A stretch of 64,000 nucleotides of DNA from Ferrithrix thermotolerans DSM 19514 (GTDB lineage Bacteria; Actinomycetota; Acidimicrobiia; Acidimicrobiales; CAIXPF01), in assembly GCA_945906305.1 (NCBI GenBank), contig CAMDQT010000011.1, positions 1 through 64,000 of the forward strand, written 5' to 3'. Every line of letters starts with the position of its first letter. Position 1 is the stretch's first letter. A model generated the notes under the pieces. It made no database searches and was not told where the DNA came from. It saw only the letters and a program-made list of their open reading frames with translations. The position numbers were made by a program, and so were the translations under genes. Positions 24,364 through 53,401 of the stretch are shown here, one piece after another.

Positions 24364-26358
24364 TCAGTCTTCGGCCGGGGCGTCCAACGCCCGAGTCCGC
24401 AACTCCTCGACCACGGATTGGTCCGCCAGCGTGGTCGTATCACCAAGGGACCGACCCTCCACCACGTCGCGGAGGAGGCGGCGCATGATCTTGCCGGACC
24501 GTGTCTTCGGAAGGTCCGGCACGAGGATCACGGCCTTAGGCCGAGCAAGCGGGCCAAGCTTCTTCGCCACGTGCTGTCGGACTTCCTCCCGGAGTACATC
24601 CGATGCCTGATAGGTGCCCCGCAGGATGACGTACCCGATGATGGCCTGGCCGGTTAGCTCGTCGTTCGCACCAACAACGGCCGCTTCGGCCACTGCGGGA
24701 TGATCGACCAGTGCAGACTCGACTTCGGCGGTCGAGATCCGGTGGCCCGACACATTCATCACGTCGTCGACCCGGCCCAACAACCACAGGTACCCATCAT
24801 CATCGAGCTTCGCTCCGTCACCGGCGAAGTAACGACCATCGAACCGACTCCAGTAGGTATCGAAGTAGCGCTCGGGGGAACCCCAAATTCCGCGCAGAAT
24901 TGCCGGCCAAGGCTTGGTGATGGTCAGGTAGCCTCCGCCGCGCTGCACCACCTGGCCTTCATCATCAACCAACTCGATGAAGATCCCCGGGATGGGGCCA
25001 CAGGCGGACCCCGGCTTGGTGGTCGTCACCCCAGGCCAGGGCGAAATCATGTGGCCGCCGGTTTCGGTCTGCCACCAAGTATCAGCGATTGGACAGCGCT
25101 CACGACCGATATGGGTGTGATACCACATCCACGCCTCAGGGTTGATCGGTTCACCAACAGTGCCGAGCACACGGAGGGAGGAGAGGTCGTGCGCCGCGGG
25201 CCACTGTTCGCCCCATTTCATGAAGGTACGGATAGCCGTGGGCGCGGTGTAGAGCTGTGTGACCCCGTAGCGCTCAATGATGTCCCACAGCCGATCCTTC
25301 GGCCACGCGGCCGGATCTCCCTGACGGAACTCGGGCCGCGGCGTGTCAGGCGTCCCTTCGTAGATCACCGAGGTAGCACCGTTGCAAAGCGGCCCATAGA
25401 CGATGTAGCTGTGCCCGGTAACCCACCCGATATCGGCACCACACCAGTAGACGTCGGATTCAGGTCGCAGGTCGAAGGTGTACTTGTGCGAGAAGGCCAC
25501 CTGGGTGAGATAACCACCCGTGGTGTGCATGATGCCCTTCGGCTTCGCCGTGGTCCCCGAGGTGTACAACAAGAAAAGCAACTGCTCGCTGTCGAGGGGC
25601 TCGGCCGCACAGTCCGTCGAGGCCGTCGCCATCAGCTCATGCCACCAATGGTCACGGCCCGGCTCCATCTCGACGTCCAGCCCGCAACGGTTCACCACCA
25701 CGACGTTCTCAACCGTGGGGCACTGCGCTAGGGCCGCATCGACGTTCACCTTGAGTCCAGACGCAACGCCGCGGCGATAACCGGCATCGGCGGTGATGAT
25801 GATGCGGGCCTCCGCATCGTTGCAGCGATCCATGATCGAGTCCGGGCTGAACCCGCCGAACACGATCGAGTGGGCGACGCCGATTCGGGTGCACGCCAGC
25901 ATGGCGATGGGCAGTTCGAGCACCATCGGCATGTAGATCAGGGCCCGATCGCCGGTTTTTAGACCGAGCCCCTTGAGCACGTTGGCGAACTTGCAGACTT
26001 CCGCGTGCAACTGCCGGTAGGTGAGGACCACGGTGTCACCCGGCTCGCCCTCCCAGTAGTAGGCGACCTTGTCGCCCAACCCCGCCTCGATGTGCCGGTC
26101 AAGGCAGTTATAGGACACATTCAGCTTGCCGCCGACAAACCATTTCGCGAACGGCAACTGCCAGTCGAGCACCGTATCGAAGTCCTCGAACCAGGTGACC
26201 AGTTCGCGCGCTTGCCGGGCCCAAAAGGCCTCGTAATCGGCATTCGCTTCGTCCCACATGGAGCGGTCCTTGACCAGCGCGGTGGCGCGGAACTCCGGCG
26301 GCGGCGGAAAGGTTCGGTCCTCGCTGTAGAAGTCGCCGATCGTGACCTGACCTGCCAT
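24364..26358 (-). CDS. acs: Acetyl-CoA synthetase (AMP-forming)
   Basis: The enzyme activates acetate to acetyl-CoA through acetyl-AMP. From ATG 26358, preceded by AAAGG, it has 664 residues; ATG 26496 adds 46 unlikely residues. Domains run from the N-terminal ACAS segment (ARELVTWFEDFDTVLDW) through the AMP-binding loop YTSGTTAKPKGIMHTTGGY, WVTGHSYIVYGPL and TWWQTETGGHM to the C-terminal hinge. The C-terminal PKTRSGKIMRR holds the lysine acetylated in other Acs enzymes, so acetylation control is likely. The Nudix gene follows by 31 bp. A 349-bp intergenic region lies upstream. Confidence 0.96.
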   Translation of the reverse strand: MAGQVTIGDFYSEDRTFPPPPEFRATALVKDRSMWDEANADYEAFWARQARELVTWFEDFDTVLDWQLPFAKWFVGGKLNVSYNCLDRHIEAGLGDKVAYYWEGEPGDTVVLTYRQLHAEVCKFANVLKGLGLKTGDRALIYMPMVLELPIAMLACTRIGVAHSIVFGGFSPDSIMDRCNDAEARIIITADAGYRRGVASGLKVNVDAALAQCPTVENVVVVNRCGLDVEMEPGRDHWWHELMATASTDCAAEPLDSEQLLFLLYTSGTTAKPKGIMHTTGGYLTQVAFSHKYTFDLRPESDVYWCGADIGWVTGHSYIVYGPLCNGATSVIYEGTPDTPRPEFRQGDPAAWPKDRLWDIIERYGVTQLYTAPTAIRTFMKWGEQWPAAHDLSSLRVLGTVGEPINPEAWMWYHTHIGRERCPIADTWWQTETGGHMISPWPGVTTTKPGSACGPIPGIFIELVDDEGQVVQRGGGYLTITKPWPAILRGIWGSPERYFDTYWSRFDGRYFAGDGAKLDDDGYLWLLGRVDDVMNVSGHRISTAEVESALVDHPAVAEAAVVGANDELTGQAIIGYVILRGTYQASDVLREEVRQHVAKKLGPLARPKAVILVPDLPKTRSGKIMRRLLRDVVEGRSLGDTTTLADQSVVEELRTRALDAPAED

Positions 26359-26467
26359 GTCGAGCACCTTTCGATCTGCCTCGCGGCCGATGATAGGTGG
26401 CCGCCGAGGCATGGATCCAACGTTGCTCCGCCAGACATCAACAATCACGACTTCAGCACATCGAATA

Positions 26468-26487
26468 GAGCCCAATTGGAGCCCAAT
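26468..26487. promoter_or_regulatory. Paired GAGCCCAAT repeats upstream of acs
   Basis: GAGCCCAAT occurs at 26468-26476 and 26479-26487, spaced 11 bp apart, about one helical turn, and overlaps an ATTGG-AGC-CCAAT dyad. It lies about 110 bp upstream of the acs start and may bind a regulator of acetate metabolism. The binding protein is unknown. Confidence 0.4.
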
Positions 26488-26571
26488 ACAGGTCAACTTC
26501 GACCAAAACTTTCAATAGCTACTCACGGTGCTGTAATATATTTGAGATATTTTTTTCACCCTGTTTTTCAG

Positions 26572-26589
26572 TTCACATCAAATTGTGAA
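26572..26589. promoter_or_regulatory. TTCACA-N6-TGTGAA dyad
   Basis: The 6-bp arms at 26572-26577 and 26584-26589 are perfect inverses separated by 6 bp. The half-sites face the opposite way from the CRP/GlxR consensus TGTGA-N6-TCACA, so it is not a simple CRP site. It sits at the downstream edge of the AT-rich block, 119 bp before the rpf-like start. Confidence 0.35.
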
Positions 26590-26707
26590 TGCAGGACACC
26601 CGGCAAAACCCCTGGTAGAACCCAACGTCAACCGCTGGGCCTTCCCGCGAACGAACCGCTCACCGAGACGGCTTCGGGGCCACAGCCGGGCTTACCACGG
26701 AGGTCTC

Positions 26708-27364
26708 ATGGTCAAGCGGCGACGGGCGAAGGTACTGCTGGCAGCAGTGGTGGCAACAGCCTGCGGTGGGGTAACCCTCGCCGGAAGCGCAGGAGCCGAA
26801 AACCCACTCCCACCAGGACTCTTCGAGGCTCACTCGCTCGCCCCAGCGGTCGCGAAACCCACCACTCATCCGTCTCCAAGGTTCGCTCTCGTTGGCGTTT
26901 TCGGATTGACGAATACGGTTGGATCCTCGACAATGCGCCAGCATGTGGAGAGGTACATCTCGCTGCAAAGTGACCCCAAATTGGCACCGCATGCGGAGCT
27001 ACTTCCAAGGCTCGACCAGGCACCTAGTGCCGAAGGTCCGCCAGAACCGCCCGCCTCAGCCAACGCCGCAGAAGCCGGCGAACGCCCACCAGCCGGTGAG
27101 AGCGGCGCAACCGAAGAGGCGCTGGCTCGACTACGTAACTGTGAATCCGGCGGTGACTATACGGCGGTGTCTTACCGCGGCTGGTACCGCGGCGCGTATC
27201 AGTTCGACCAAGCCACCTGGGATTCTGTCGCCTCGCGAACAATGCCAGATCTGATCGCCCTCGACCCAGCTCAGGCGTCGCCGCCAGATCAGGACTCCAT
27301 GGCAAGGGCCCTCTATGTGGAGCGTCTGTGGTCACCGTGGCCGACGTGCGGCGTCGGTCTGTAA
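26708..27364 (+). CDS. Secreted Rpf-like (resuscitation-promoting factor) transglycosylase
   Basis: The 218-residue protein has a Sec signal peptide (basic MVKRRRAK, hydrophobic core, probable cleavage after SAGA near residue 30), a proline/alanine-rich linker, and a C-terminal Rpf domain from about residue 137. The domain shows LRNCESGGDY with the catalytic Glu at 146, GWYRGAYQFDQATWDSVA, and ends with WSPWPTCGVGL, whose Cys may pair with Cys145. Rpf domains cleave peptidoglycan and wake dormant actinobacteria. ATG 26708 is chosen because GGAGG lies just upstream and the signal peptide starts there. No LysM domain is present. Confidence 0.88.
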   Translation: MVKRRRAKVLLAAVVATACGGVTLAGSAGAENPLPPGLFEAHSLAPAVAKPTTHPSPRFALVGVFGLTNTVGSSTMRQHVERYISLQSDPKLAPHAELLPRLDQAPSAEGPPEPPASANAAEAGERPPAGESGATEEALARLRNCESGGDYTAVSYRGWYRGAYQFDQATWDSVASRTMPDLIALDPAQASPPDQDSMARALYVERLWSPWPTCGVGL

Positions 27365-27396: not shown

Positions 27397-28416
27397 TCAG
27401 GGCTCAGCTAGCCCATCCCACTCCAAGGCCCAAAACCAGCCGAGCCCGTTCGGGTCTAGGAGCGCATCAGCCTCGCGTACCCGGCTGCGGGCACGGATCG
27501 AAGCAAGATCGCCCAGCGCGGCGCGCTCCGACCAGATTTTTCGACCCTCCTCAACCATGGCCTCAATCCCCCAGTGCCGAAGCCAGTCCGCCTGCCTCAT
27601 TCGACTCAGAGGAGGAGGCAGTTGATCGAGGGGGACATCGCAGGTGATGTCTTGCTGGCCTGGCGACTCGAACGGCGACGTCCCCGGTTGATGTTGCCGG
27701 AAGGTACGAAGCCAAGCAGTGGGCGCACGCCACGCCAGCTCAGCCGTGTCCGCTCCATAATCGAAGGCCAGTAGCCGTCCCCCCTCCACCAGCTTGGCTC
27801 TCGCCGCGTCCACCCACTCCGCGGCACAACGAGCTACGGGGACGCTCGGCGGATGGTCCTCCTGAGCATTGCCAACCAATGGCGCGGTCAGTGCGGTCAC
27901 GACTGCGGGCACGTCCGATGCCGGTAGCAAGCGCTGCCGGCTGGGGCCCTCTCCGGGGCCAACGAACACCTCCAGCCACTGGCCGCGATGACGTTGCAGG
28001 ACGCGAACCGCCAGGTTGTCCAACAGTTCGTTGGCAAAGATCACGTGAGCGCATTCCAGCGCATCGAGATCGACCAAACTGCGTCCCAAGGTGCGGTCGT
28101 GCAACGATCGCCCGCTGGGGGAACGTTCGATCAAGACCAGATCTAGCGCTTCGATACAGCGCGGCCTCGCGGCGTGTAGCTCCCGGGCAAATGTTCCTGG
28201 ACCCGCCCCGACGTCGGCCACCACAAACGGATCAGGCTGACCCAAACGGTCCCAGTGGAAATCGAGCCATCGGGCGACGACCGCCCCGAACAGTGGCCCC
28301 ACCTCCACTGAGGTCAGAAAGTCGCCACGACGACCAGCCATACCGACGCCGGACGCATAAAAACCATGCTCCGGGTCGTACAGACAGGCATCCATGTAGG
28401 CCTCGAAGCTGACCAC
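27397..28416 (-). CDS. MidA/NDUFAF7-type SAM-dependent methyltransferase (probable complex I assembly factor)
   Basis: The family (DUF185) includes mitochondrial NDUFAF7/MidA, which methylates an arginine of the NuoD homologue during complex I assembly. The protein has about 339 residues from GTG 28416: SFEAYMDACLYDPEHGFYASG at the start, SAM-binding VVADVGAGPGTFARELHAA, and the typical VIFANELLDNLAV. It directly follows nuoN of the 11-gene complex I cluster, 32 bp after its stop, as the last gene of the respiratory run. This context strongly supports a NuoD-methylating role, though it is untested. The start is uncertain because no ATG fits. Confidence 0.85.
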   Translation of the reverse strand: MVSFEAYMDACLYDPEHGFYASGVGMAGRRGDFLTSVEVGPLFGAVVARWLDFHWDRLGQPDPFVVADVGAGPGTFARELHAARPRCIEALDLVLIERSPSGRSLHDRTLGRSLVDLDALECAHVIFANELLDNLAVRVLQRHRGQWLEVFVGPGEGPSRQRLLPASDVPAVVTALTAPLVGNAQEDHPPSVPVARCAAEWVDAARAKLVEGGRLLAFDYGADTAELAWRAPTAWLRTFRQHQPGTSPFESPGQQDITCDVPLDQLPPPLSRMRQADWLRHWGIEAMVEEGRKIWSERAALGDLASIRARSRVREADALLDPNGLGWFWALEWDGLAEP

Positions 28417-28447: not shown

Positions 28448-29968
28448 TCAGCCGCCTGCGAATGAGAGCAGGCCACCGAGATTGCCCGTGAAGTGCCCGA
28501 TGAGTCCAGGGAACACACCGAACAGAACCGTCGCCGCAATGGTGATCGCCAGAGCCGACACCAAGGAAACCGGCACCTTGATGGGCGTGCTGTCACCGTG
28601 CGGTTCGGGACTGAACCACATCGCCTTGAGCACCAGGCCGTAGTAATAGAACGCGATCACCGAGTTCAACGCCACCACGATGGCTAGGACGTAACCGGCC
28701 GGAGTGTCCGCGGCAGTGAGGGCCCGGAACACCACGAACTTCGCAAACCAACCGCCGAGCGGCGGAATGCCCGCCAACGAGGCAAGGCAGATGGTCATGG
28801 CGACCGTAAGACCTGGGGCGTACCCAAACAGGCCCCCCATCGAGGAGATCTCGCCCGATTGGGTCTTGCGGGACACAGCGATGACAACCGCAAAAGCACC
28901 CAAGTTCATAGCGGCGTAGATCAGCAGGTAGCTGACCACGGCCGTCAGCGCATCCGCGGCGTTGGTCGCACTCACGGCGAACGGGGCGAGCATGAAGCCG
29001 GCCTGGGCGATGCCGGAATACGCCAACAGGCGCACCACGTTCGTCTGGCGGAGGGCGATGAGGTTTCCCACCGTCATCGACGCCGCGGCAAGTGCCCACA
29101 TCAGCGGCTCGACGACGTCGGTCCGACCCAGGAATCCGACGAAGACAAGCTGCACCAACGCGACGAAGCCCGCCGCCTTGGAGGCCACGGCGAGGAACGC
29201 CGTAACCGGAGTCGGGGCGCCCTCGTAGGTGTCTGGAGCCCAAGTGTGGAAGGGCACCGCCGATACCTTGAAGCCGAAGCCGACCACGACGAGCACGATG
29301 GCAAGCGTGACGATCGGGGTGGAGCTTTCGGCCTCCGCGATCGAGGCGCCGATTTCGGTCAACAGCGTCGACCCAGTGATGCCGAACAGGAGCGACATGC
29401 CGTACAACATGAGCGCACTGGCGAACACACCCATCAGGTAGTACTTCAGGCCTGCTTCATTGGAGCGCAGATTGCGCTTCTCCCACGAGGCCATCAGGTA
29501 TGCCGGGATCGAGAGCAACTCGAGCGCCACGAAAATGGTCACGAGGTCTCGGGCGGAGCACATCACCACCATGCCGAGCATCGAGGAGAGGAGCATGAGG
29601 TAGAACTCGCTCTCCCAGAAATCGCCTTCGGCCAGATAGTTGCTCGACAACAGGGTGACGACGTAGCCCGCGAGGAGGAACATCGCCTGTAGCACCAACG
29701 AGACGTTGTCGACCACGAAGGCACCGCCGAACAAGCTCCGATCGGCGCCATGCAGCGCCAAGGAGATCACCGGGACCAAGCTGGCCAGCATCGCCAGGCC
29801 GGTAAGGCCGGGAATGAACCGCTTCGCGTCTTCAAGTTTGATCACGTCGACCACGAGGATGACGGCCACGAACGCCACGAGGACGATCTGCGGCGCGAGG
29901 GCGTGGAAGTCGACGACCGGCGCCTCAAAGGGCAACTGCGGTGCCTGTGCCAGCAAGGTTGCGATCAC
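28448..29968 (-). CDS. nuoN: Complex I subunit NuoN (11-gene cluster)
   Basis: NuoN is one of three antiporter-like proton-pumping subunits. The protein has 506 residues and is almost entirely hydrophobic, with the family segments SRDLVTIFVALELLSIPAYLM (near residue 145, carrying the conserved membrane Glu), PFHTWAPDTYEGAPTPVTAFLAVASKAAG and RLLAYSGIAQAGFML. It starts with GTG 8 bp after nuoM and is followed by the MidA gene. Confidence 0.96.
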   Translation of the reverse strand: MIATLLAQAPQLPFEAPVVDFHALAPQIVLVAFVAVILVVDVIKLEDAKRFIPGLTGLAMLASLVPVISLALHGADRSLFGGAFVVDNVSLVLQAMFLLAGYVVTLLSSNYLAEGDFWESEFYLMLLSSMLGMVVMCSARDLVTIFVALELLSIPAYLMASWEKRNLRSNEAGLKYYLMGVFASALMLYGMSLLFGITGSTLLTEIGASIAEAESSTPIVTLAIVLVVVGFGFKVSAVPFHTWAPDTYEGAPTPVTAFLAVASKAAGFVALVQLVFVGFLGRTDVVEPLMWALAAASMTVGNLIALRQTNVVRLLAYSGIAQAGFMLAPFAVSATNAADALTAVVSYLLIYAAMNLGAFAVVIAVSRKTQSGEISSMGGLFGYAPGLTVAMTICLASLAGIPPLGGWFAKFVVFRALTAADTPAGYVLAIVVALNSVIAFYYYGLVLKAMWFSPEPHGDSTPIKVPVSLVSALAITIAATVLFGVFPGLIGHFTGNLGGLLSFAGG

Positions 29969-29975
29969 GGCGACC

Positions 29976-31505
29976 TCAGCCCGCTAAAGCCTGGGCGAGA
30001 ACTTCGACCGCGTCGCTGGTCATTCCGAAGATGATGACCGGCAGGAAGCCAAGCAGGACGATCAACACCAACATCGGCAACCAGGCAATCCATTCTGCGG
30101 TGCCCACATCGTGCACGTGCTCGTGGGCGAACTCGTCCTTGGGGGATCCGAACGCAGTGCGCTGATACAGCCACAACAAATACCCCGCCGCAAGGACGGT
30201 TCCTAGAGCGGCCACGAACATGTAGAAGCGGAACAGTCCGACGCTCAGACCCGGTGCCGGGTTGTAGGCCGACAGAATCGCCGGGAACTCTCCCCAAAAG
30301 CCGGCCAGGCCGGGCAAGCCGAGTGACGCCATGGCAGTGAAACCAAGGACCCAGCCCATGTGTGGAGCCTGTTTCAGCAGGCCACCAAGGCGAGAGATCT
30401 CCAGCGTGTGGAACCGCTCCTTCAGCGACCCGGCAACGAAGAACAACATGCCGGTGATCAACCCATGGGCGACCATTCCAAAGATGGCAGCGTTGATTCC
30501 GAAGTCGGTGAGGGTGGCGATCCCCAACATCACGTAGCCCATGTGCGCCACCGAGGAAAACGCGATGAGCCGCTTCATGTCGGTCTGCGCCAGACACGCC
30601 AGAGCGCCGTAGATGATTCCGACGCAGGCCAGACCGCCGATGATCGGTGCCCACCAACGGGCGCCGTCGGGCAGGATCGGCAGCGCGATACGGACGAAGC
30701 CGTAGGTGCCGAGCTTCAGAAGGACCGCGGCGAGGATCACTGAGCCTTGCGTCGGGGCCTGAGTGTGAGCATCGGGCAACCAGGTATGGAAGGGGAACAT
30801 CGGCACTTTGATGCCAAAGCCGATGAACATGCCACCGAAGATCAGAATCTGCGTGGTCCGCGCCACCTCACTGGACTGAACCAGCGCCGCGAGCTCGGTC
30901 ATGTTGAAGGTCTGCGCCCCGGCGACGAAGAAGAGGGCCAAGAAGCTGACAATCATCAAGGCCGACCCGAACAGCGTGTACAGGAAGAACTTGATCGAGG
31001 CGTATTGCCGCTCCTCGCCGCCCCACACGCCGATCATGAAGTACATCGGCAGCAGCACGATCTCGAAGAACACGAAGAACAGGATCAGGTCCTGCGCCAC
31101 GAAGCTGCCCAACATTCCGGTATCGAGCACCAGGATGAGGATCAGGAAAGCCTTTGGATTCACCGGGTCGGGAAAGTGGTTCCAGCTGTAGATGATCACG
31201 AGGGGCACCACGAGCAAGGTCAACAAAATCAGTGGCATGGCAATGCCATCGACACCGACCGTGAAGCGGGCCTTGATCACCTCGATCCAGCTCTTGTCCA
31301 CCACGAACTGCAACTCGGCACTTTTGTCCCAGTCGAAGTTCAGCGCGAGCAGGGCGCCGATCACCGCGACGCCCAAGGAGGTCACCAGAGCCAGCGTCTT
31401 GTGCAGCTCCTCCTCCGCTTTGGGGATGAGCATCATCACCACGGCGCCTACCAACGGTAGGAACACCATGGCGGTGATACCCCAATCGTTCAGGAAGTCC
31501 TTCAT
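29976..31505 (-). CDS. nuoM: Complex I subunit NuoM (11-gene cluster)
   Basis: This is the second antiporter-like subunit, 509 residues. Key segments are LILFFVFFEIVLLPMYFMIG with the proton-channel Glu, FPFHTWLPDAHTQAPTQGSVILAAVLLKLGTYG with the channel Lys, and MKRLIAFSSVAHMGYVMLG. It lies between nuoL (23 bp) and nuoN (7 bp). Only 30-40% of positions look shared with the second NuoM at 40,639 by eye, so the two are not a recent duplication. Confidence 0.96.
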   Translation of the reverse strand: MKDFLNDWGITAMVFLPLVGAVVMMLIPKAEEELHKTLALVTSLGVAVIGALLALNFDWDKSAELQFVVDKSWIEVIKARFTVGVDGIAMPLILLTLLVVPLVIIYSWNHFPDPVNPKAFLILILVLDTGMLGSFVAQDLILFFVFFEIVLLPMYFMIGVWGGEERQYASIKFFLYTLFGSALMIVSFLALFFVAGAQTFNMTELAALVQSSEVARTTQILIFGGMFIGFGIKVPMFPFHTWLPDAHTQAPTQGSVILAAVLLKLGTYGFVRIALPILPDGARWWAPIIGGLACVGIIYGALACLAQTDMKRLIAFSSVAHMGYVMLGIATLTDFGINAAIFGMVAHGLITGMLFFVAGSLKERFHTLEISRLGGLLKQAPHMGWVLGFTAMASLGLPGLAGFWGEFPAILSAYNPAPGLSVGLFRFYMFVAALGTVLAAGYLLWLYQRTAFGSPKDEFAHEHVHDVGTAEWIAWLPMLVLIVLLGFLPVIIFGMTSDAVEVLAQALAG

Positions 31506-31528
31506 GTGGCGACCGTACCTACTTCACC

Positions 31529-33934
31529 CTAGATGGCGAGAACTAACACCCCGGCCAGAATGGCCGTGGCACCGAACATGAGCGCGGCATATCCCTGCAC
31601 CCGCCCATTCTGCATGCGGCGCAGGAAGCCGCCTGTCTCCGCTGCCTTGATACCGGAGCCATTTACCACACCGTCCACGACCTGCTGGTCAAGGACGGCG
31701 TAGGTGAAGCCGGCGATGCGTTTGGAGACCGTTGCTGCGCCGATGACAATGGCGTCGAGCACACACTTATTGAACCAGTTGGCACCGCGAGCGATCGGGC
31801 CCTTGACGGTGGCGACGATGACGTCGGTATACAGCCAGTCAAGATAGAACTTGTTGACGAGGACCCCATACGCCAGCTTCGGCAAACCGCCGCGACTCAC
31901 CGGACCGTTGGTTAGCTCGGTCGCCTTCGGGTCTCCCGCCTGAACCTTGCGGAAGTACAAGACCACGAGCGCACATCCGATGCTCGAGGCAACCACGGAG
32001 ATGATGGCGATCACCGGGCTGAACTCGCTGTGGTCAAGTTTCGGAAAGTAAAGGGACTTCGGTTCGATGTAGTGCTCGAAGCGGAGTCTCCAACTCGCCG
32101 GCACGAAGGAGAAGGCGGCCGGGATGTTGGCCACCGATGCCACGGTCGCCAGCGCGGCGAGGACCATCAACGGAACCGTGATCCGGGGACCGGATTCATG
32201 GGGCAAGCCCGCGTGGGCATCATGGGCGTCGTGGCTGTCGTGGGCCCCAGCCACGTCATGCTCCGCGGCGTGATCGTCATGGTGAGCTAGCACGGTGACC
32301 GCCACCGCCTCGTCGTCATGGCCATGCGTGCCATGGTGGGCGTTGGGTGAATCTGCGCCCCGCCATTCGCCCAGGAACGTAAGCCAATAGCAGCGGGTCA
32401 TGTACGCCGCGGTCATAGCGCCGGTCATGAGGCCCATCACGAGCATGAGGTGGTAGTTCCCGTTGGCGCCCTCGCTCAGGCCGAAACCACCTGTTCCGGC
32501 CAGGATCTCATCCTTGGACCAGAAGCCGGAGAGGAGCGGGAAACCGGAGAGGGCCAGGGTTCCAATGAGGAAGGTGACATGGGTTCTCGGCATGTATTTG
32601 CGCAGGCCACCCATGTCCTGCTTCATGTCGAAGGAGTGGTTACAGGCGTGGCTCACCGAACCCGCACCCAGGAATAGGCACGCCTTGAAGAAGGCATGCG
32701 TCATGAGGTGGAACATCGCCGCGGTCCAGGCCCCAACGCCGAGGGCCATGATCATGTAGCCCAACTGCGAGACCGTTGAGTAGGCGAGAACCTTCTTGAT
32801 GTCGCGCTGGACGAAGGCCAGCGAGCCACCGACCATCGTCGTAATGGCGCCGATTGCGGCCAGCGCGTTGATCGGGCTCCCAGCGATCGATAGGCCGGAG
32901 AAGAACACTGGATACAGGCGAGCCACCATGAAGACGCCAGCGACCACCATGGTTGCGGCGTGGATGAGGGCGGACACCGGCGTGGGACCCGCCATGGCGT
33001 CGGGCAACCACGTGTGCAAGATGAACTGACCGGATTTCGACATCACCGCCGCGATCAGGCAGAGCGAAGCCACCAACAACGCCGTGTGCGACACCGCTCC
33101 AGATGCCGCGGCCACATTGATGTCGATGATGTTGAAGCTCTCACCCCGACCGGCGGTGAAGAACAACACGATCATGCCTATGAGCAAGCCGATGTCGCCG
33201 ACGCGGTTGGTGAGAAAGGCCTTGAGGGCGGCGTTGGAGTTCTGCTGGTCCTCCCACCAGTGCCCGATGAGGGCGAAGCTACAGACACCTACCAGTTCCC
33301 ACGCCGTGATGAACATCACCAGGTTGTTGGCCAACACGAGCAGCAGCATCGAGGCCGTGAACAACGACAGAAAGGCGAAGTAGTGGGTGTAGCGAATGTC
33401 CCCGGCCACATAGTCAGTGGAAAAGACGTGCACCAAAAGCGAGATCAAGCCGACGACGAAGAGCATCATCACCGCTTGACCATCGACGAAGGTCCCAATA
33501 CCGAAGTCGATGCGACCGATGGTCCACCAGTCCGACTTCCACTCCGTCACCACCGGGTGCACCACATGGTGCACCTGCTCAGCCTGCTCGGCACCTGGTT
33601 CGACTTCCGCCTTCACCGTGGCGTGAGCCGCCGCGGAGGGGGCGTCGTCTTCATGGGTCGTGTCAGCGGAGGGCTCCGCGCCGTGTCCCCCCGTCTCACT
33701 ATTGACATGGGAGACCCACTGGGCGCCCGCAGCCAGTGCGCAGACGAACACGAGCGACAAGGCGGCCACACCGACCTCGGCGCCTTTCTTCGGCATGCGC
33801 TTGCCGAAAAAGAGGATCAACAGGAACGAGACGAACGGAATCGCGGGGAAGACCCAGGCGTTTTTCAGGAACCAGCCCGCACTTTCGGCGGCTATGGCTC
33901 CAGTCTCGGAGGCGAAAAGCACGGCTGGAGTCAT
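31529..33934 (-). CDS. nuoL: Complex I subunit NuoL (11-gene cluster), with histidine-rich insertion
   Basis: NuoL carries the distal proton channel and the long lateral helix. At 801 residues it is longer than the usual 610-680. Conserved stretches are WELVGVCSFALIGHWWEDQQN, QFILHTWLPDAMAGPTPVSALIHAATMV and KKVLAYSTVSQLGYMIMALG. Extra length comes from an N-terminal loop (about 65-125) rich in His/Glu/Ala and a loop near residues 525-585 with about 13 histidines, both probably soluble. The C-terminus keeps a helix-anchoring tail. The start overlaps nuoK (ATGA). Confidence 0.95.
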   Translation of the reverse strand: MTPAVLFASETGAIAAESAGWFLKNAWVFPAIPFVSFLLILFFGKRMPKKGAEVGVAALSLVFVCALAAGAQWVSHVNSETGGHGAEPSADTTHEDDAPSAAAHATVKAEVEPGAEQAEQVHHVVHPVVTEWKSDWWTIGRIDFGIGTFVDGQAVMMLFVVGLISLLVHVFSTDYVAGDIRYTHYFAFLSLFTASMLLLVLANNLVMFITAWELVGVCSFALIGHWWEDQQNSNAALKAFLTNRVGDIGLLIGMIVLFFTAGRGESFNIIDINVAAASGAVSHTALLVASLCLIAAVMSKSGQFILHTWLPDAMAGPTPVSALIHAATMVVAGVFMVARLYPVFFSGLSIAGSPINALAAIGAITTMVGGSLAFVQRDIKKVLAYSTVSQLGYMIMALGVGAWTAAMFHLMTHAFFKACLFLGAGSVSHACNHSFDMKQDMGGLRKYMPRTHVTFLIGTLALSGFPLLSGFWSKDEILAGTGGFGLSEGANGNYHLMLVMGLMTGAMTAAYMTRCYWLTFLGEWRGADSPNAHHGTHGHDDEAVAVTVLAHHDDHAAEHDVAGAHDSHDAHDAHAGLPHESGPRITVPLMVLAALATVASVANIPAAFSFVPASWRLRFEHYIEPKSLYFPKLDHSEFSPVIAIISVVASSIGCALVVLYFRKVQAGDPKATELTNGPVSRGGLPKLAYGVLVNKFYLDWLYTDVIVATVKGPIARGANWFNKCVLDAIVIGAATVSKRIAGFTYAVLDQQVVDGVVNGSGIKAAETGGFLRRMQNGRVQGYAALMFGATAILAGVLVLAI

Positions 33935-34230
33935 CCCTTCAGCAGGTCGACCGACTCGAGGTCGATACTCGACCGGTTGCGGTAGATGAGCAGCACGATG
34001 GCGAGGCCAACCCCAACCTCAGCGGCTGCCACCCCAATGACGAAGAGGGCAAAGACCTGTCCAACGGGCGTGCCGTGATAGGCGCCGAACGCAATGAAGT
34101 TGAGGTTGACCGCGTTGAGGAGCAACTCGATGGACATCAGCACCATCACGCCGTTGCGACGGGCGAGCACGCCGTAGACGCCGATACAGAAAAGCAGGGC
34201 CCCGAGCAGAAGAAACTGGTTCAGCCACAT
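33931..34230 (-). CDS. nuoK: Complex I subunit NuoK (11-gene cluster)
   Basis: This small membrane subunit has 99 residues and three helices. The second helix carries MSIELLLNAVNLNFIAFG with the conserved Glu of the E-channel, and the third has the second conserved Glu in GVAAAEVGVGLAIVLLIYR. It overlaps nuoL by 4 bp and follows nuoJ by 2 bp. Confidence 0.97.
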   Translation of the reverse strand: MWLNQFLLLGALLFCIGVYGVLARRNGVMVLMSIELLLNAVNLNFIAFGAYHGTPVGQVFALFVIGVAAAEVGVGLAIVLLIYRNRSSIDLESVDLLKG

Positions 34231-34232
34231 CG

Positions 34233-34733
34233 CTACTCCTTTCGGGCCACGACGATGGCCCCAATGAGCGCCGCCAACAGCAGGAACGAAACCGCCTCGA
34301 ATGGGATGAGGTAATCGTGGAATATGGCGTCGCTCACCATCTGGGTCGACTGAGGCTCGAGCGCGTTTTGGGCGTCGAGCGCTTCGGTGTCGAACGCATC
34401 GACAAGCGCGTAGGCCATCACCGCGAACAGGAGTAGGGCGACAACGCCCGCCAGCCAGCGGCGGTCACCGTCAACGGACTCTTCGCGACCGATGCGAGCC
34501 CGGGTCAGCATGATGCCAAAGAGGAACAGCACGAGGACCGCGCCGATGTACACCAGCACCTGGGTGACACCGGTGAACTCGGCGCCAGTGATGATGAATT
34601 GAGCGGCGATGCCGGCCAGCACGACGACGAGGTACAAAGCGGCGTGGAGAATGTTCTTGCTGGTGACGACCCGCACAGCAGACGCCACCATGGCCAAGGC
34701 GATGATTGCAAAGAAAATGTTCTGGGCCACCAT
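34233..34733 (-). CDS. nuoJ: Complex I subunit NuoJ (11-gene cluster)
   Basis: This membrane subunit has 166 residues from ATG 34733 (MVAQNIFFAIIALAMVASAV). It has five hydrophobic helices and the family segment GVTQVLVYIGAVLVLFLFGIMLT in helix 3, which moves during the quinone cycle. A longer open frame upstream overlaps nuoI in another frame and is rejected; the chosen ATG is 2 bp after the nuoI stop. Confidence 0.95.
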   Translation of the reverse strand: MVAQNIFFAIIALAMVASAVRVVTSKNILHAALYLVVVLAGIAAQFIITGAEFTGVTQVLVYIGAVLVLFLFGIMLTRARIGREESVDGDRRWLAGVVALLLFAVMAYALVDAFDTEALDAQNALEPQSTQMVSDAIFHDYLIPFEAVSFLLLAALIGAIVVARKE

Positions 34734-34735
34734 GG

Positions 34736-35269
34736 TCAGCGGGGCACCTTCTTCGTCTTCTGCACAGACCCGCCTTCGTAGTCTTCGAAGTCGGGCACCG
34801 TCTCCATCCACAGGCCCAATCGGCTCTTGTCGTGGAGCAAGTCCGCAATGCGCGGTTCGGAGTACTCGTACTCCGGGCTCCAAAACAGCGCTTCGAAGGG
34901 GCACACCTCGACGCAGATCCCGCAGTACATGCACAGGGCGAAGTCGATGTCGAACCGGTCGAGCTCGTTGCGTTGACGAGGCTTGCCGCCCTCCCGACGA
35001 GGGGGGGCCAAATATTTGTGCGCCTCGATGAAGATGCACCAGTCGGGGCATTCCCGGGCGCACAACATGCACGAGGTGCAGTTCTCTTCCTTCAACGCGA
35101 TCACGCCACGTGCTCGTGGCGCAGGATCTTCCTTCACATGGGGGTACTGAACGGTCACCGCGCCCTTAGATGGCGCTGGTGGCTTGGTGAGGCCGTTGGG
35201 GAACACCGTCTTACGGGCCTCCCCCATGGTCACAGCAAGACCCTTGATCACTCCAGGAACGAGACCCAT
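34736..35269 (-). CDS. nuoI: Complex I subunit NuoI, two-[4Fe-4S] protein (11-gene cluster)
   Basis: NuoI carries clusters N6a and N6b toward NuoB. The protein has 177 residues from ATG 35269. Its ferredoxin motifs are [12 protein letters not shown] (64-75) and [12 protein letters not shown] (113-124), all eight cysteines present. The start overlaps the nuoH stop as TGATG. In a complex without NuoE/F/G, this subunit would be close to the electron entry point, so it is a candidate docking site for ferredoxin. Confidence 0.97.
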
Positions 35270-36303
35270 CAGAACGCCACCTTCAGCACAGCAGTCACCG
35301 CAATGTTCACCAGCGAGACGGGAATGAGGTACTTCCAAGCGAAGATCTGCAGCTGATCCTCACGGAATCTTGGATACGTGAAGCGGAACCACATGACCAA
35401 GAAGACAATCAACATCATCTTCGTCAGCATGACCAGCGGCCCGAGAAGGTTCATGATGTCCGCATCGAACCCGATTCCGGGAAGTGCCCACCCACCGAGG
35501 AACAACACCGCCGCAATGGCGGAGAACGCACCGGCGGTGGCATATTCACCGATGAAGAACAGTAGGAACCGGAACCCCGAATACTCCGTCATGTAGCCAG
35601 CGACGAGTTCCGACTCTGCCACGGGCATGTCGAAGGGTGGCTGGGTGAGCTCGGCCTGCATCGCAATCATGAACACCGCGAAGCCCACGAACTGGGTGAT
35701 GATGTACGGGTTTCCGATGAACCCAACGCCGAACATCTCGCCGTTGCGCTGAGCCTCGACGATGCCCTGCATGTTCATCGTGCCCGCCTGTATCACGACG
35801 CCGAGCACGGCAAGAACGAGCGGCAGCTCGTAGGCGATGAGCTGTCCCGCAGAGCGAAGACCGCCCATCAGCGAGTACTTGTTCGCCGATGCCCAGCCGG
35901 CCATGAGGATTCCGATCACGGAAACCGAGGACACCGCAAGGGCGAAATAGATGCCGGTTGGGATGTCGGCGAACCAGGCATCGGGCCCGAACGGCACCAC
36001 GGTGTACATGATGAAGGTAGACGCCACGACCACGATGGGGGCCCAAGCGAACACCCTGCGATCGGCTCCATTAGGAAAGAGGTCTTCTTTCTGGAGCCAC
36101 TTGCCAACCTCGGCCAGCAACTGCATCGACCCGTAAGGACCAGCTTCCATGGGGCCCAACCGGCTCTGCATGAAGCTCATCATCTTGAACAAGAAGAGGT
36201 ACACGATGGTGCCAGCGGGTAGGAGAACCGCCGCCAGAAGACCGAGGACGCGAAGGATCGACACCTGCCAGTACGCGAGATCGGCAAGCACGACGGCACT
36301 CAT
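35269..36303 (-). CDS. nuoH: Complex I subunit NuoH (11-gene cluster)
   Basis: NuoH builds the quinone chamber and links the arms. From ATG 36303 the protein has 344 residues with about eight membrane helices. Typical segments are [30 protein letters not shown], the acidic loop [29 protein letters not shown], and [24 protein letters not shown]. The start overlaps the nuoD stop by 4 bp (ATGA). The longer upstream frame runs inside nuoD and is rejected. Confidence 0.97.
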
Positions 36304-37478
36304 CGGTCGATGTCTCCGAGGATGAAGTAGAGGGACGCGAGAATGGTGATGACGTCGGGAACGTACACGCCGCGCAGCAACCAAGGCACAATAGAGATGT
36401 TGTTGAAGCTCGCCGAGCGGATCTTCACCCGGAAGGGGACAAGGTCGCCCTTGGACACCACGTAGTAGCCCATCTCGCCGAGTGGGTTCTCCGTAGCCAC
36501 CCACGCCTCGCCGGCGGGCACCTTGATGATACGGGGCACTTTCGCCATGATCGGCCCCGGCGGAAGGCCGTCACAGAGCTGGATCACCATCTTGGCTGCT
36601 TCGCGCACTTCCTGGAGCCGAACCCAATACCGGGCGAAGCTGTCGCCGTCGGGATGGGTCCACACCTTCCAATCCAGCTTGTCGTAAACCAGCCCCACTG
36701 GGGTGTCTCGACGGTTGTCCCAGTCCACGCCGGAGGATCGCAAGTTGGCGCCCGACAGACCGTAAGACAAGGCGACTTCGGGCGGAATGACGCCAATGCC
36801 ACGCGTCCGGAGGTTGAAGATCTCATTGCCCACCAGCAGGGTCTCAAGCTCGTCGCAGAAGGCGTTGACCTTGACCATCACCTGCTTGGTCTCCGCTATC
36901 CACCCTTTGGGCAGATCGTCTTTCAGTCCGCCGATGCGATCGAAGTTCGGGTGGAACCGTCCGCCGGTGGCCGATTCGATGAGGTTCAGTACGTACTCGC
37001 GGTCACGGAAGGCGTAGAACACCGGGGTCACCGCGCCGAGCTGGACCGCCATGTCGCCGAGGAAGAGCGTGACATTGGCGATTCGAGACAGCTCGAAGAG
37101 CAATGTGCGGATCCATTGGGCCCGTGGTGGCGCCTCGACATCCATGAGCTGCTCGGCAGCAAGAATGAAGGGCACCTCGTTGGCGAAGCTACCGAGCCAA
37201 TCAATGCGGTTGATAAGGCTGTTGACCTGAGGAAAGGTACGGACCTCAGTCAGTTTCTCGTAGCCACGGTGCATGTAACCCGGCACCGGATCTGCGGCGA
37301 CAACCTGCTCGCCGTCAAGCTTCACGATGATGCGAAGCGTCCCGTGCGTGGCGGGATGCTGAGGCCCGATGTTGAGCGTCATGCCCTCGGTTTCGAGCTC
37401 GACGTTGACGCGCATGTCGGCGGCTTGGCTGGCGATATAGGCCCGCTGCTGGCGTTCGCTGATAGCGGTCACGCTCAC
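36300..37478 (-). CDS. nuoD: Complex I subunit NuoD (11-gene cluster), Trp at quinone-site Tyr
   Basis: NuoD forms the quinone-reducing pocket with NuoB. The protein has 392 residues. [12 protein letters not shown] keeps the loop with the conserved histidines, and the C-terminus ends ILGDIDR as expected. In the helix that normally reads R-x-D-Y, this protein reads [13 protein letters not shown], so the tyrosine that contacts the quinone headgroup in other complex I structures is Trp. NuoD of the 14-gene cluster has Tyr there (TRMDYASPLFNE). The GTG start overlaps nuoC (GTGA). Confidence 0.95.
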
Positions 37479-38155
37479 TCGCCTCCGTCATCGTCGGCAA
37501 CACCCGGCATGCCTTCGACGTCGACGATGCCCGGCCACGGCCTCACCATGCGAGACAACAGCGGAAAGTCCTTGCGCAGCGGGTAACCCTCGAAGTCGCC
37601 GGGCAGGTACAGCTTGCGGAGCGAAGGATGGCCAGCGAACGTGATGCCGAACATCTCGAACGCCTCGCGTTCGTGCCAGTTCGCACCGCCGAAGTGCTTG
37701 GTCCAAGTAGCCATCGTCAACGTGTCGTCGGGAACATCGGCCTTGAAGTTGACCCCAACATGACGCTCGACGTCGTAGAGGCGGGCCAGCAACTGGAACC
37801 GGGTCTCACCGCCGGTCACCCCGTGCGTCATCGGCTCGGGGTCCTTGGCCGCGACATGCTCGAGGATATTGTCCACCGAACTGTCCATACTCCGGCCAAA
37901 CGGCGAAGGTAGCCAGTCGATGACAGAGAGATAACAGAAATAGGAGCAGCGCAGGACATCGCGACCAACCCTGCCCGCCGCATCCCACGCCTCGGCGGTC
38001 ACCCGAACCCAAAGGTCACGCCCGGGCAGGAGGTGTGATGCCACCACACCGTCTTGCAACTCGTTGACGAGACCCTCGACGAGCCCGGTCCGCAATTCGT
38101 CGGTCGCCGCTGCGTCCCCCGCTTCGTCGGTGTCAGTTGACGACAAGTGGCTCAC
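37475..38155 (-). CDS. nuoC: Complex I subunit NuoC (11-gene cluster)
   Basis: NuoC is the 30-kDa peripheral-arm subunit. The core matches the family at [59 protein letters not shown]. The start is uncertain: GTG 38155 (226 residues, used here) or TTG 38146, which has AAGGGTG at better spacing; both overlap the nuoB end. An insertion with [17 protein letters not shown] in the middle is not usual. The protein is about 50 residues longer than the second NuoC. Confidence 0.9.
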
Positions 38156-38633
38156 CCTTCCACTTCGCAGCCATGTCCTCGTTGGCCACCATCTCCTGAA
38201 GCAGCACGATGCCCTCGAGCAACGCTTCGGGACGGGGCGGGCAACCAGGTACGTAGACGTCGACGGGGATGATCTGATCGACGCCCTTGGTGACGGAGTA
38301 GCTGTCCCAGTACGGGCCGCCACAATTCGCGCAGCTTCCCATCGAGATCACGTACTTCGGCTCCGGCATCTGCTCGTAGAGACGGCGGATCGCGGGTGCC
38401 ATCTTGTCGGTGACCGTGCCTGAAACCACCACGAGGTCGGCCTGACGGGGGCTCGCCGGGAAGGGAATGACGCCCAGCCGCATCACGTCATAGCGCGGCG
38501 AACCGAAGGCGGCTCCCATCTCGATGGCGCAGCAGGCGAGCCCCCACTGGTAGACCCACATCGAGTACTTCCGACTGATATTGAGCAGCTTGGTCAGGGG
38601 CTTGGGGAGCTTGCCGCTCTCGACTAGACCCAT
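38133..38633 (-). CDS. nuoB: Complex I subunit NuoB (11-gene cluster)
   Basis: NuoB holds cluster N2, the electron donor to quinone. The protein has 166 residues. The four ligands are in [11 protein letters not shown] (adjacent Cys pair), GSCANCGG and [11 protein letters not shown]. It overlaps nuoA by 10 bp and nuoC by about 20 bp. All quinone-side residues visible by eye are typical. Confidence 0.97.
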
Positions 38634-38989
38634 CGCAACACACCCTTTCGCCAGGCGTACACCAGGCCGAGGAACAACACGAAGATGAAGATGCCCATCT
38701 CGACCAGGCCGAATAATCCGTAGGCCTCGAGGCGCACCGCCCAGGGGAAGATGAACACGGCCTCGACGTCGAACATCACGAAGAGCAAAGCGAAGATGTA
38801 ATAGCGAACCTGGCTTTGCGACCAGCCCGTACCGACCGGATCAACACCGCTTTCGTACACGATGCTCTTCTGGGGCGAAGGCTTGTTCGGCCGCAACAAC
38901 GCCGAGACACCGAGTAGCGCCGACACGATGGTGACAGCCACCCCGACGAAGATGCCGACCGTGAGGTAGCTACGAAGGAAGTCGGACAC
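38624..38989 (-). CDS. nuoA: Complex I subunit NuoA (11-gene cluster)
   Basis: NuoA is a small membrane subunit of 121 residues with three helices. The conserved loop [41 protein letters not shown] is clear. It is the first gene of the 11-gene cluster and lies 105 bp after nuoN of the 14-gene cluster on the same strand. The short gap may hold a promoter or allow read-through. Confidence 0.96.
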
Positions 38990-39094: not shown

Positions 39095-40642
39095 TCAACT
39101 TGCGGCACGAACCAATACCGGCACGGCGTCACGGGCCAGACCAGTGATGAGGCCGGGGAACACGCCGACCAGCAGGGTCACCCCGACGGTGATGGCGATG
39201 GCCGCCCAGACGGTAGCGGGAACGCCGAGTGCTGCTTCCTCCCCAGCATCGCTATCTGGCCCGACGCCGAGGTCGGCGTGGTCGTCGCTCATGTACATGG
39301 CGACGATGATGCGGAGGTACACGAATGCACCAATCACCGCCGAGCCCATGGCGACGAGTGCGAGCCAGTAGCTGCGGGACTCCACCGCGGCCATGATCAC
39401 CCCGAATTTCGCGAAGAATCCCGATGTCAGCGGCACACCGGCCTGGGCCAGCAACATCACCGAGAACGCCGCAGCCAACAGCGGATTGCGGGCACTGAGG
39501 CCCTTGAAGTCCTCGAGGGAACTGTGGGCATCGCCCTTGCGGGAGACAACACTGATCACCGCAAAAGAACCTGCCACCATGAACGTGTATGCGGCGAGGT
39601 AGAACAAGGCGGCTCCGGTGCCCTCGCTGCTGGCCGCTTGGACTCCGAGAAGGATGAACCCGGCGTGCGCAATCGAGGAGTACGCCATCATTCGCTTGAC
39701 ATCGGTCTGTACCACGGCGAGTAACGCTCCACCGAGCAGGGTGGCCACGGCCAAGATGTACACGATTGGCTGCCACTCGGTGCGCTCGCTGCTGAAGGCG
39801 ACGTAGAACACCCGCAGCAATCCCGCGAAGCCCGCCACCTTGACCCCCGAGGCCATATAGGCGACGACGGGTGACGGGGAACCCTGGTAGACGTCTGGGG
39901 TCCAGGAATGGAACGGCACGGCGGCAACCTTGAAGCCGAAGCCCACCAAAAGCATGGCCAAGCCGGCCAGAAGCAACGAGTTGTCGAGAAGGGTGTTTTC
40001 GACCAGGAACGTGCGAATACCGATCAGGCTCGTCGATCCGGTCGCGCCGTAGGTCATGGCGATGCCGTAGAGAAAGAAAGCGGAGGAGAACGCCCCGAGT
40101 ACGAAGTACTTCATGCCCGCTTCCTGGGAAGCGAAGCGGCGCAGATGCGATGCCGCAAGGACATACACGGCGAGGGAGAGGATCTCCAGGCCGAGGAACA
40201 TCACGATCAGGTCGTTGGCGGATGCCATGATCACCCCGCCCGAGGCGGACAGCAGCAGCAGCACGTACAGTTCGGCCCCCTCGAGGCCTTCCCGTTTGAG
40301 ATATCCGTCCGCCAGTAATGCGGCGAGGATCACCGAAACGCACAGCAACACCGTGACGAAGACCGAGAAGCCATCAACGCCGAATGCGCCCCCAAGAGTC
40401 GAGAATGGTCCGCGATCAGGGTCCATGACCCGGCTCCATAGGCCTAGGGCGAATCCAGCGGCCACGGTGGCGATAGCGATAGTGACCCCGGTGTAGAACC
40501 CACGCCATACACGCGGCAACAGCGAAGAAGCGTGAAGCAACACCATCGCTGGCGCGGCAAGCAACAGCAGCGGCATGACACCCCACCAATCAACGGAGGG
40601 TGTGCTCACCGCCACCTCGGAGGCCTGAGCAAGAAGGCTCAC
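39095..40642 (-). CDS. nuoN: Complex I subunit NuoN (14-gene cluster)
   Basis: This antiporter-like subunit has 515 residues. Typical segments are ANDLIVMFLGLEILSLAVYVLAASH, PFHSWTPDVYQGSPSPVVAYMASGVKVAGF and VKRMMAYSSIAHAGFILLG. GTG 40642 overlaps the nuoM stop (GTGA). It is the last gene of the 14-gene set; the second set begins 105 bp further on. Confidence 0.96.
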   Translation of the reverse strand: MSLLAQASEVAVSTPSVDWWGVMPLLLLAAPAMVLLHASSLLPRVWRGFYTGVTIAIATVAAGFALGLWSRVMDPDRGPFSTLGGAFGVDGFSVFVTVLLCVSVILAALLADGYLKREGLEGAELYVLLLLSASGGVIMASANDLIVMFLGLEILSLAVYVLAASHLRRFASQEAGMKYFVLGAFSSAFFLYGIAMTYGATGSTSLIGIRTFLVENTLLDNSLLLAGLAMLLVGFGFKVAAVPFHSWTPDVYQGSPSPVVAYMASGVKVAGFAGLLRVFYVAFSSERTEWQPIVYILAVATLLGGALLAVVQTDVKRMMAYSSIAHAGFILLGVQAASSEGTGAALFYLAAYTFMVAGSFAVISVVSRKGDAHSSLEDFKGLSARNPLLAAAFSVMLLAQAGVPLTSGFFAKFGVIMAAVESRSYWLALVAMGSAVIGAFVYLRIIVAMYMSDDHADLGVGPDSDAGEEAALGVPATVWAAIAITVGVTLLVGVFPGLITGLARDAVPVLVRAAS

Positions 40643-42369
40643 TTTTCTTCCTCCGTGTGACCCTCGGCCCCGTGGCCATCGGCTTGGGTCTCGGCCGCCT
40701 CTAGCGCCGCGGTGAGCTCCTCAGCCCCCGCCTTCTTTCCGGACAAGATCACCACTGCGAGGACCTTTCCGGGCTCTTTACTACCTGCTTTGCCCGACAG
40801 TTCCACCTCGGTGCCGCTTTGGACTTCCGGTGCGGTGAAGGTGTCGGACTTCTGTTCGATATGGGCAATGAGCCGGCCGACGGAGGGTTCGATTCGATCG
40901 ATCATCGGCTTCGGATAGACCCCCAGGAACACGATGCCGACAATGAAGACGGCCAGGATCCCACCCTCGCGGAAATTCAGGTCCTTGAAGCGTTCGTTCT
41001 CCACGGATTGGGCGGTGCCGTGGAAGGTCCGCTGGTAGGCCCACAGCAGGTAGAGCGCAGCCAGGATCACCCCGAGGGCGGCCACCACGGCGTACCAGCG
41101 ATGCGCCGTGAACGTTCCGTTGAGGATAAGGAACTCACCGACGAAGCCATTGAGGCCTGGCACCCCGATGGAGGAGAGCATGACCACCGTGAAGGCCGCC
41201 GCCATTAACGGCGCGGCCTTCTGCAAGCCGTTGAGCTCGGCGATCATTCGGGTGTGTCGGCGCTCATAGATCATGCCCACGAGAAGGAACAATGCGCCCG
41301 TGGACAGACCGTGGTTCACCATCTGCACAATGGCGCCGGTGATGCCTTGACGGTTCAGGGCAAAGGAGCCGAGAACGATGAAACCGAGGTGGGCCACCGA
41401 CGAGTAGGCGACAAGCCGCTTGAGGTCTTTCTGCATGGTGGCCACGACCGATCCATACAAGATCCCGACCACCCCGAGAATCAAGAACATCGGCGCGGCC
41501 CAACGGGCTGCCTCGGGGAAGAGATAGAGCCCAAAGCGCAGGAACCCGTAGGTGCCAAGTTTCAGCATCACTCCGGCCAGGATCACCGACCCCGCAGTGG
41601 GTGCCTCGGTGTGGGCATCTGGAAGCCAGGTGTGGAGCGGAAATATCGGCACCTTGATGGCGAAGGCCAATGCGAACGCACAGAACACCGCCCGGGCGGT
41701 CTGGGTCGATAGCGCCTGCTCGTTGGCCAAGGTGCGCAAATCGAAGGTGATAGCTCCCCCGGTTGCCCGTTGGGTGAGCACCACCAACACCACCATTCCC
41801 ACCAGCATGATGGCGGATCCGAACATGGTGTAGAGAAAGAACTTCAGTGCGGCGTAGGTCCGATTCCCGTGTCCCCATTTGCCGATGAGGAAATACATCG
41901 GCACCAGCACCAGCTCGAAGAACACGAAGAACATGAAGAGGTCTAGGGCCAGGAACACACCCATCGAGGCCGCCTGGAGCAGCAACAGCCAACCGTAATA
42001 CGGCTTCGAGTCGTGCTCGGGAAGGACCGCGAGGATGGCGATGGGGAACAGCACACCCGTAAGCACGACCAGGAAAAGGGATATCCCGTCGACCCCGAGC
42101 TTCCATCCGATGCCGTAGTCCTTGATCCAAGTCCAAGACTGCACGAACTGGAAATCGCCGTCGGCCTGCTGGAACTTGACCAGGAGGGCGATTGACAACA
42201 AACCAGTGAGCGCCGCGACCAGGAAAGCGACCTGGCGCACCAGTTCCGGTCGCTGGGCACTCATCAGGCACAGCACCAACGCACCGGCCGCTGGCACCAA
42301 CACCAGTGCGGTCAGCAAATAGTCGAACGATGGCGATGCCGCCGCCGAGGCGAGTAGGGCAGCAAGCAT
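40639..42369 (-). CDS. nuoM: Complex I subunit NuoM (14-gene cluster), with hydrophilic C-terminal tail
   Basis: From ATG 42369 the protein has 576 residues, longer than the usual 490-510. It contains LFMFFVFFELVLVPMYFLIG with the conserved Glu and FPLHTWLPDAHTEAPTAGSVILAGVMLKLGTYG with the channel Lys. After the last helix a soluble tail of about 85 residues follows, rich in Glu, Ala and Lys, ending HGAEGHTEEEK. The tail would face the cytoplasm or outside depending on helix count, and I know no function for it. The start overlaps nuoL as TGATG. Confidence 0.95.
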   Translation of the reverse strand: MLAALLASAAASPSFDYLLTALVLVPAAGALVLCLMSAQRPELVRQVAFLVAALTGLLSIALLVKFQQADGDFQFVQSWTWIKDYGIGWKLGVDGISLFLVVLTGVLFPIAILAVLPEHDSKPYYGWLLLLQAASMGVFLALDLFMFFVFFELVLVPMYFLIGKWGHGNRTYAALKFFLYTMFGSAIMLVGMVVLVVLTQRATGGAITFDLRTLANEQALSTQTARAVFCAFALAFAIKVPIFPLHTWLPDAHTEAPTAGSVILAGVMLKLGTYGFLRFGLYLFPEAARWAAPMFLILGVVGILYGSVVATMQKDLKRLVAYSSVAHLGFIVLGSFALNRQGITGAIVQMVNHGLSTGALFLLVGMIYERRHTRMIAELNGLQKAAPLMAAAFTVVMLSSIGVPGLNGFVGEFLILNGTFTAHRWYAVVAALGVILAALYLLWAYQRTFHGTAQSVENERFKDLNFREGGILAVFIVGIVFLGVYPKPMIDRIEPSVGRLIAHIEQKSDTFTAPEVQSGTEVELSGKAGSKEPGKVLAVVILSGKKAGAEELTAALEAAETQADGHGAEGHTEEEK

Positions 42370-44807: not shown

Positions 44808-44811
44808 CCAA

Positions 44812-45132
44812 TCATCCCTTCAGCGTGGCGACGTCATCAGCGGTGGCCAAGGGCCGGCGCCGGAGGACGGCAACGACGATGGCCAGTCCGACCACCACCT
44901 CGGCGGCGGCAACGACCATGACGAAGAACACGACGGCCTGGCCTCCCAGGTCGTTTAGAGCACGTGAGAACGATACGAACGTGAGGTTCACAGCGTTGAG
45001 CATCACCTCCACGCACATGAACATCACCAAAGGGTTCCGGCGGACCAGCAGGCCAACCGCACCAATCGTGAACAGCACCGCGGCCAGCACCAGATACCAG
45101 TTGGGGGTCACGATCTGCGCCAACAGCGTCAT
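44812..45132 (-). CDS. nuoK: Complex I subunit NuoK (14-gene cluster)
   Basis: This 106-residue, three-helix membrane subunit has [21 protein letters not shown] with the conserved Glu in helix 2 and the second conserved Glu in [19 protein letters not shown]. It overlaps nuoJ by 4 bp (ATGA). By eye it resembles the other NuoK mainly at these motifs. Confidence 0.97.
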
Positions 45133-45728: not shown

Positions 45729-45733
45729 CGCGC

Positions 45734-53338: not shown

Positions 53339-53401
53339 GGCGTGTCCCAGTGGTGTGGGTGGGAGCGGGCTGAGGGCCAACGGAGGCCGTTCAGCCGGTG
53401 C

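Follow-up and report, generated by a model that had tools for sequence, protein, structure and literature searches.

A MidA-type methyltransferase gene behind an EFG-less complex I cluster of Ferrithrix thermotolerans is predicted to serve the NuoD protein of that cluster

The window, i.e., the whole stretch of DNA analysed here, comprises the first 64,000 nucleotides of contig CAMDQT010000011.1 from Ferrithrix thermotolerans DSM 19514 (assembly GCA_945906305.1) and carries two sets of complex I genes (Table 1). Cluster 1 is a full 14-subunit set of the NADH type, while cluster 2 consists of nuoA, B, C, D, H, I, J, K, L, M, and N without nuoE, F, and G, and is followed by midA. According to its gene content, cluster 2 thus encodes an EFG-less (11-subunit) complex I. 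The preliminary description placed midA at the end of a single complex I run; its position at a cluster end holds, but the run is in fact two clusters, with midA behind the second one, and the gap between the nuoN2 stop and midA is 31 bp rather than 32. Among other genes of the window, those for cytochrome b, a Rieske protein, cytochrome c, and ferredoxin precede cluster 1 in the same orientation, with a gene for a 304-aa protein without a Pfam match in between. On the other side, midA is followed by acs (acetyl-CoA synthetase), from which it is separated in the window by a convergent transglycosylase-like gene. In at least 16 relatives acs also follows midA, often directly.

Table 1. Positions of complex I genes, midA, and neighbouring genes in the window
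Feature	Positions	Strand	Remarks
Cytochrome b, Rieske, cytochrome c, ferredoxin genes	57126-60144	minus	
304-aa protein	55037-55951		no Pfam match
Cluster 1	39095-55036	minus	nuoN, M, L, K, J, I, H, G, F, E, D, C, B, A
nuoB1	53920-54549	minus	Arg99 of the listed ORF, in an 11-residue stretch, codon 54253-54255
nuoD1	52052-53380	minus	Thr97 in YLHTGMEK, codon 53090-53092
Cluster 2	28448-38989	minus	
nuoA2	38624-38989	minus	
nuoB2	38133-38633	minus	Thr73, in an 11-residue stretch, codon 38415-38417
nuoC2	37475-38323	minus	ORF limits; overlaps nuoB2, true start probably near 38126
nuoD2	36300-37478	minus	predicted substrate, motif YMHRGYEK
NuoD2 Arg71 codon	37266-37268	minus	predicted methylation site
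nuoH2	35269-36504	minus	ORF limits
nuoI2	34736-35338	minus	4Fe-4S ferredoxin domains
nuoJ2	34233-35072	minus	in the downstream part of the ORF
nuoK2	33931-34230	minus	
nuoL2	31529-33934	minus	ORF limits; start not settled
nuoM2	29976-31505	minus	
nuoN2	28448-29968	minus	
midA	27397-28416	minus	339 aa, GTG start; assigned by Pfam, solved relatives, and motifs
Transglycosylase-like gene	26585-27364	plus	
acs	24364-26496		

The family assignment and coordinates given earlier for the MidA/NDUFAF7-type methyltransferase are confirmed. The midA product matches PF02636 (Methyltransf_28) with 100.8 bits against a cut-off of 23.3 (E-value 1.1e-28), which is the only match of this family in the scanned 3.1 Mb assembly. 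Its best solved relatives are 1zkd (DUF185, E-value 2.8e-16), 5ztz (3.3e-12), and 4f3n; the second of these is the Dictyostelium MidA/NDUFAF7 homologue, so that homology to the characterised enzyme is detectable from sequence. The SAM-site motif GAGPG (residues 70-74) and the family motifs NE..D (129-133), DYG (219-221), and GxxDIT (253-258) are all kept, which suggests an active enzyme; Ala136 stands where the family has Pro after NE..DNL. An AlphaFold model built from 6 sequences had a mean pLDDT of 43.9 and was too poor for a fold search. Scanning genome contigs with the single MidA sequence yielded 6 relatives, three of them from Acidimicrobiia. As for the 14 control genomes, PF02636 matches were found only in Caulobacter, Synechococcus, and Haloferax, and PF00146 (NuoH and related proteins) in 11, which is consistent with MidA being confined to a subset of complex I carriers.

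The residue modified by this family is known from other systems. In NDUFS2, it is the Arg of the HRGxE motif that NDUFAF7 methylates; Pichia and Paracoccus have this modification as well, while E. coli has an unmodified Arg and Thermus a Thr at this site (PMC3750175, PMC3829151, PMC8042128). A bacterial complex I bearing dimethyl-Arg is thus already known, namely in Nqo4 of Paracoccus denitrificans (PMC3750175). In addition, an inter-subunit switch has been described, in which a NuoD Thr goes with a NuoB Arg (Arg83 of Thermus Nqo6) and a NuoD Arg with a NuoB Thr (PMC8042128).

Both states of this switch are present in the window. NuoD2 reads YMH-R71-GYEK, with Arg71 equivalent to Arg85 of human NDUFS2 (mature numbering; PMC3750175, PMC8042128), and is paired with a NuoB2 that has Thr; NuoD1 reads YLH-T97-GMEK and is paired with a NuoB1 whose Arg99 is the equivalent of Thermus Nqo6 Arg83. 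By sequence, one genome therefore combines a Thermus-type site in cluster 1 with a mitochondrial-type site in cluster 2. The same pairing holds in all 58 clusters in which both residues could be read (Arg/Thr for NuoB/NuoD in 35, Thr/Arg in 23, mixed in 0), a count in which a few rows possibly represent one cluster read from two overlapping loci. The preliminary description had asked whether the target Arg is conserved in both NuoD copies or missing from both; it is found in NuoD2 and replaced in NuoD1. Methylation of NuoD1 at this position was rejected, as Thr97 stands in place of Arg, and NuoD2 alone can be the substrate there. Among other midA-bearing genomes, the NuoD2 site also occurs as HRAxEK or HRSVEK (five loci), i.e., the Gly that follows the target Arg can be replaced.

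Within the class, 149 Acidimicrobiia genomes of at least 90% completeness were compared. PF02636 was found in 123 of them and an Arg-type NuoD in 124, a 125th pattern match being left out because it is not a NuoD. Both are present in 119 genomes and neither in 21, with 5 having only the Arg-type NuoD and 4 only MidA, whereas Thr-type NuoD is found in 145 of 149 regardless of midA. According to contig checks, cut contigs explain 7 of the 9 discordant genomes: the contig of three Arg-only genomes breaks off inside cluster 2 or at its end, and in all four MidA-only genomes cluster 2 genes are on cut contigs. The two remaining Arg-only genomes, which are not among these explained cases, are drafts. 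In two of the MidA-only genomes, midA lies 2-4 kb from NuoE/NuoF/NuoG-like genes outside the nuo clusters.

Linkage of midA to complex I across Acidimicrobiia, which the preliminary description proposed to look for, is widespread. Wherever midA and nuoD2 share a contig (82 of 82 genomes), midA is downstream of nuoD2 on the same strand, and 64 of these have the two genes 8.5-10.3 kb apart, as would be expected for midA directly behind nuoN. Loci read directly show the order A, B, C, D, H, I, J, K, L, M, N, midA, often then acs, in many families. In some families, however, midA is several kb off or elsewhere and does not adjoin nuo genes. Thus, within the class linkage is common but not universal, while co-occurrence is nearly complete. 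Since midA is lost together with the whole of cluster 2, the Arg is inseparable here from the rest of the cluster.

In a panel of 148 genomes from the phylum, PF02636 was detected in 43 and NuoD with HRG in 53, but the strict HRG pattern missed the HRA and HRS variants. Of 6 genomes in which MidA appeared to lack an Arg-type partner, 5 turned out to have HRA or HRS there, so that a single case remains (G214), with midA present and only Thr-type NuoD found; 42 of 43 midA-bearing genomes thus also have an Arg-type NuoD. Conversely, in 16 of 148 genomes an Arg-type NuoD is present and midA is not (in one of these, G038, at the end of a contig), meaning that the Arg can occur independently of MidA. 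The association thus runs in one direction: MidA accompanies an Arg-type NuoD, which can itself do without MidA. Eleven loci from several families (f50, f64, f72, f76, f78, f45, and others) contain complete or near-complete second nuo clusters with an HRG-type NuoD, often HRGFEK, and no midA was found nearby or, according to PF02636, elsewhere in the genome. These loci are natural negatives for the methylation prediction.

The raw co-occurrence count owes much to shared ancestry, and the tree-corrected test is weaker. On supported branches of a NuoD1 tree with 110 rows, MidA presence changes independently 7 times; Arg-type NuoD follows in the same direction in a mean of 6.7 of these 7 and never goes against it (sign test, p ~0.016). 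Starting from changes of the Arg instead, the same tree yields 10 pairs, of which 7 agree, 3 have no MidA change, and 0 are opposite. An earlier, smaller tree, one row of which was faulty (G093), showed 3 independent co-losses with branch support, too few to reach significance. The NuoD1 of G093, a single-contig assembly, has a Thr-type frame that appears shifted about 100 residues in, owing to a sequencing error or a broken gene.

More specific information comes from eight genomes in which a gene for an HRG-type NuoD2 is located outside its cluster; six of them, of 7-10 Mb, belong to one genus, and two are smaller. In the seven such loci that were read, no other nuo genes were found within the 20 kb stretch. 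midA directly adjoins the relocated nuoD2 in four loci and lies 1.9-6.7 kb from it in three others. In four such genomes, for which 14-20 kb were read, the nuo2 cluster itself has the order A, B, C, H, I, J, K, L, M, N, without nuoD and with a Thr-type NuoB2. In a fifth (G199) it is reduced to fragments A2, B2, C2, a short H2 piece, and I2, with nuoD2 and a midA-like gene elsewhere. In addition, nuoD2 and midA are adjacent but differ in strand in three loci from two other families. That nuoD2 and midA have stayed together, away from the other ten genes, points to NuoD2, and not the entire complex, as the partner of MidA.

The sequence comparisons support the earlier interpretation, i.e., a link between MidA and complex I and a predicted methylation of NuoD; of the two findings that it named as refuting, no linkage in relatives and no target Arg in either NuoD, neither was obtained. 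In its narrower form, we consider it probable that MidA is a protein-arginine methyltransferase dedicated to the EFG-less complex I, which dimethylates Arg71 of NuoD2 only, during assembly. MidA would most likely bind free or early-assembled NuoD2 and symmetrically dimethylate Arg71 of the HRGxE motif, near iron-sulfur cluster N2, before or during NuoB2 docking. Methylation of the Arg may then help to fasten NuoD2 to NuoB2, which has Thr at the matching position, and to tune N2. The 14-subunit complex would need no methylation step, because NuoB1 Arg supplies the guanidinium there and NuoD1 has Thr. The catalytic activity, the target residue, the symmetric type of dimethylation, and the role in assembly are carried over here by analogy with mitochondrial and Paracoccus work.

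Three other explanations have to be weighed against this proposal. MidA could act on complex 2 at some other residue or subunit, or as a non-catalytic assembly chaperone, since in Acidimicrobiia midA tracks the whole cluster and linkage alone names no subunit. This is unlikely, given that in several actinobacteria the only one of the 11 genes that accompanies midA outside the nuo2 cluster, next to it or close by, is nuoD2, that the catalytic motifs are conserved, and that the characterised homologue acts on exactly the equivalent Arg (PMC3829151). Even less probable is a DNA or general methyltransferase whose position behind nuoN reflects inherited synteny and has no functional meaning. DNA methylation has been reported for Wolbachia MidA expressed in E. 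coli (PMC12455994), and shared ancestry partly explains the midA-nuo linkage. Such an enzyme, however, would hardly be expected to show repeated co-loss with Arg-type NuoD on the tree, to stay with nuoD2 in the differing arrangements of other lineages, and to occur almost never without an Arg-type NuoD.

As for methylation of both NuoD proteins, the side-by-side location of the two complexes in the genome would favour it. NuoD1, however, has Thr at the site, and midA is absent from the 21 Acidimicrobiia genomes that have only Thr-type NuoD, which makes this the least probable of the alternatives. Dedicated dimethylation of NuoD2 Arg71 remains the preferred reading. A wider view may be put forward only tentatively: two complex I designs would coexist in one cell and differ in the source of the N2-proximal Arg, with the NuoD-Arg design having a dedicated, co-inherited methylase. 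In that case, methylation might mark and tune the EFG-less complex, for which F420H2 or ferredoxin may be the electron source, and set it apart from the NADH-type one.

In comparison with mitochondrial NDUFAF7/MidA of human and Dictyostelium, which acts on NDUFS2 Arg85, the protein described here shares the Pfam family, the motifs, the HRGxE Arg in the cognate NuoD, and the NuoB Thr. It is, however, bacterial and non-proteobacterial, its gene follows an EFG-less nuo cluster, its activity is predicted from sequence, and the same cell also has a complex I without the target Arg. Paracoccus denitrificans Nqo4 is likewise a bacterial NuoD homologue with the same Arg, but the modification was measured there (PMC3750175), while here it is predicted, and for an 11-subunit complex. 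Cluster 1 has the residue pair of Thermus thermophilus (Nqo4 Thr and Nqo6 Arg83), but in the window this pair is accompanied by an Arg/Thr-type complex and by midA. The gene content of cluster 2 is that of the 11-subunit complex I (PMC11238625) and of the second, EFG-less nuo cluster of Ca. Actinomarinales, for which F420 was suggested as electron donor (PMC7771536). The passages searched in the latter paper make no mention of an adjoining methyltransferase or of the Arg/Thr difference, and the word methyltransferase is absent from its text. A literature search outside the 2018 work on the proteobacterial origin of MidA returned no report of MidA-nuo linkage in bacteria.

These results bear on the question of why complex I carries a dimethyl-Arg by N2 and on the reach of the enzyme beyond mitochondria and proteobacteria. 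A single cell that holds a complex needing the NuoD Arg, a complex not needing it, and one candidate methylase represents a natural test of the modification. Deletion of midA should affect one complex only, which would provide a built-in control that mitochondria lack, and the nuoD2-midA pair located apart from the cluster in large-genome actinobacteria would be easy to manipulate.
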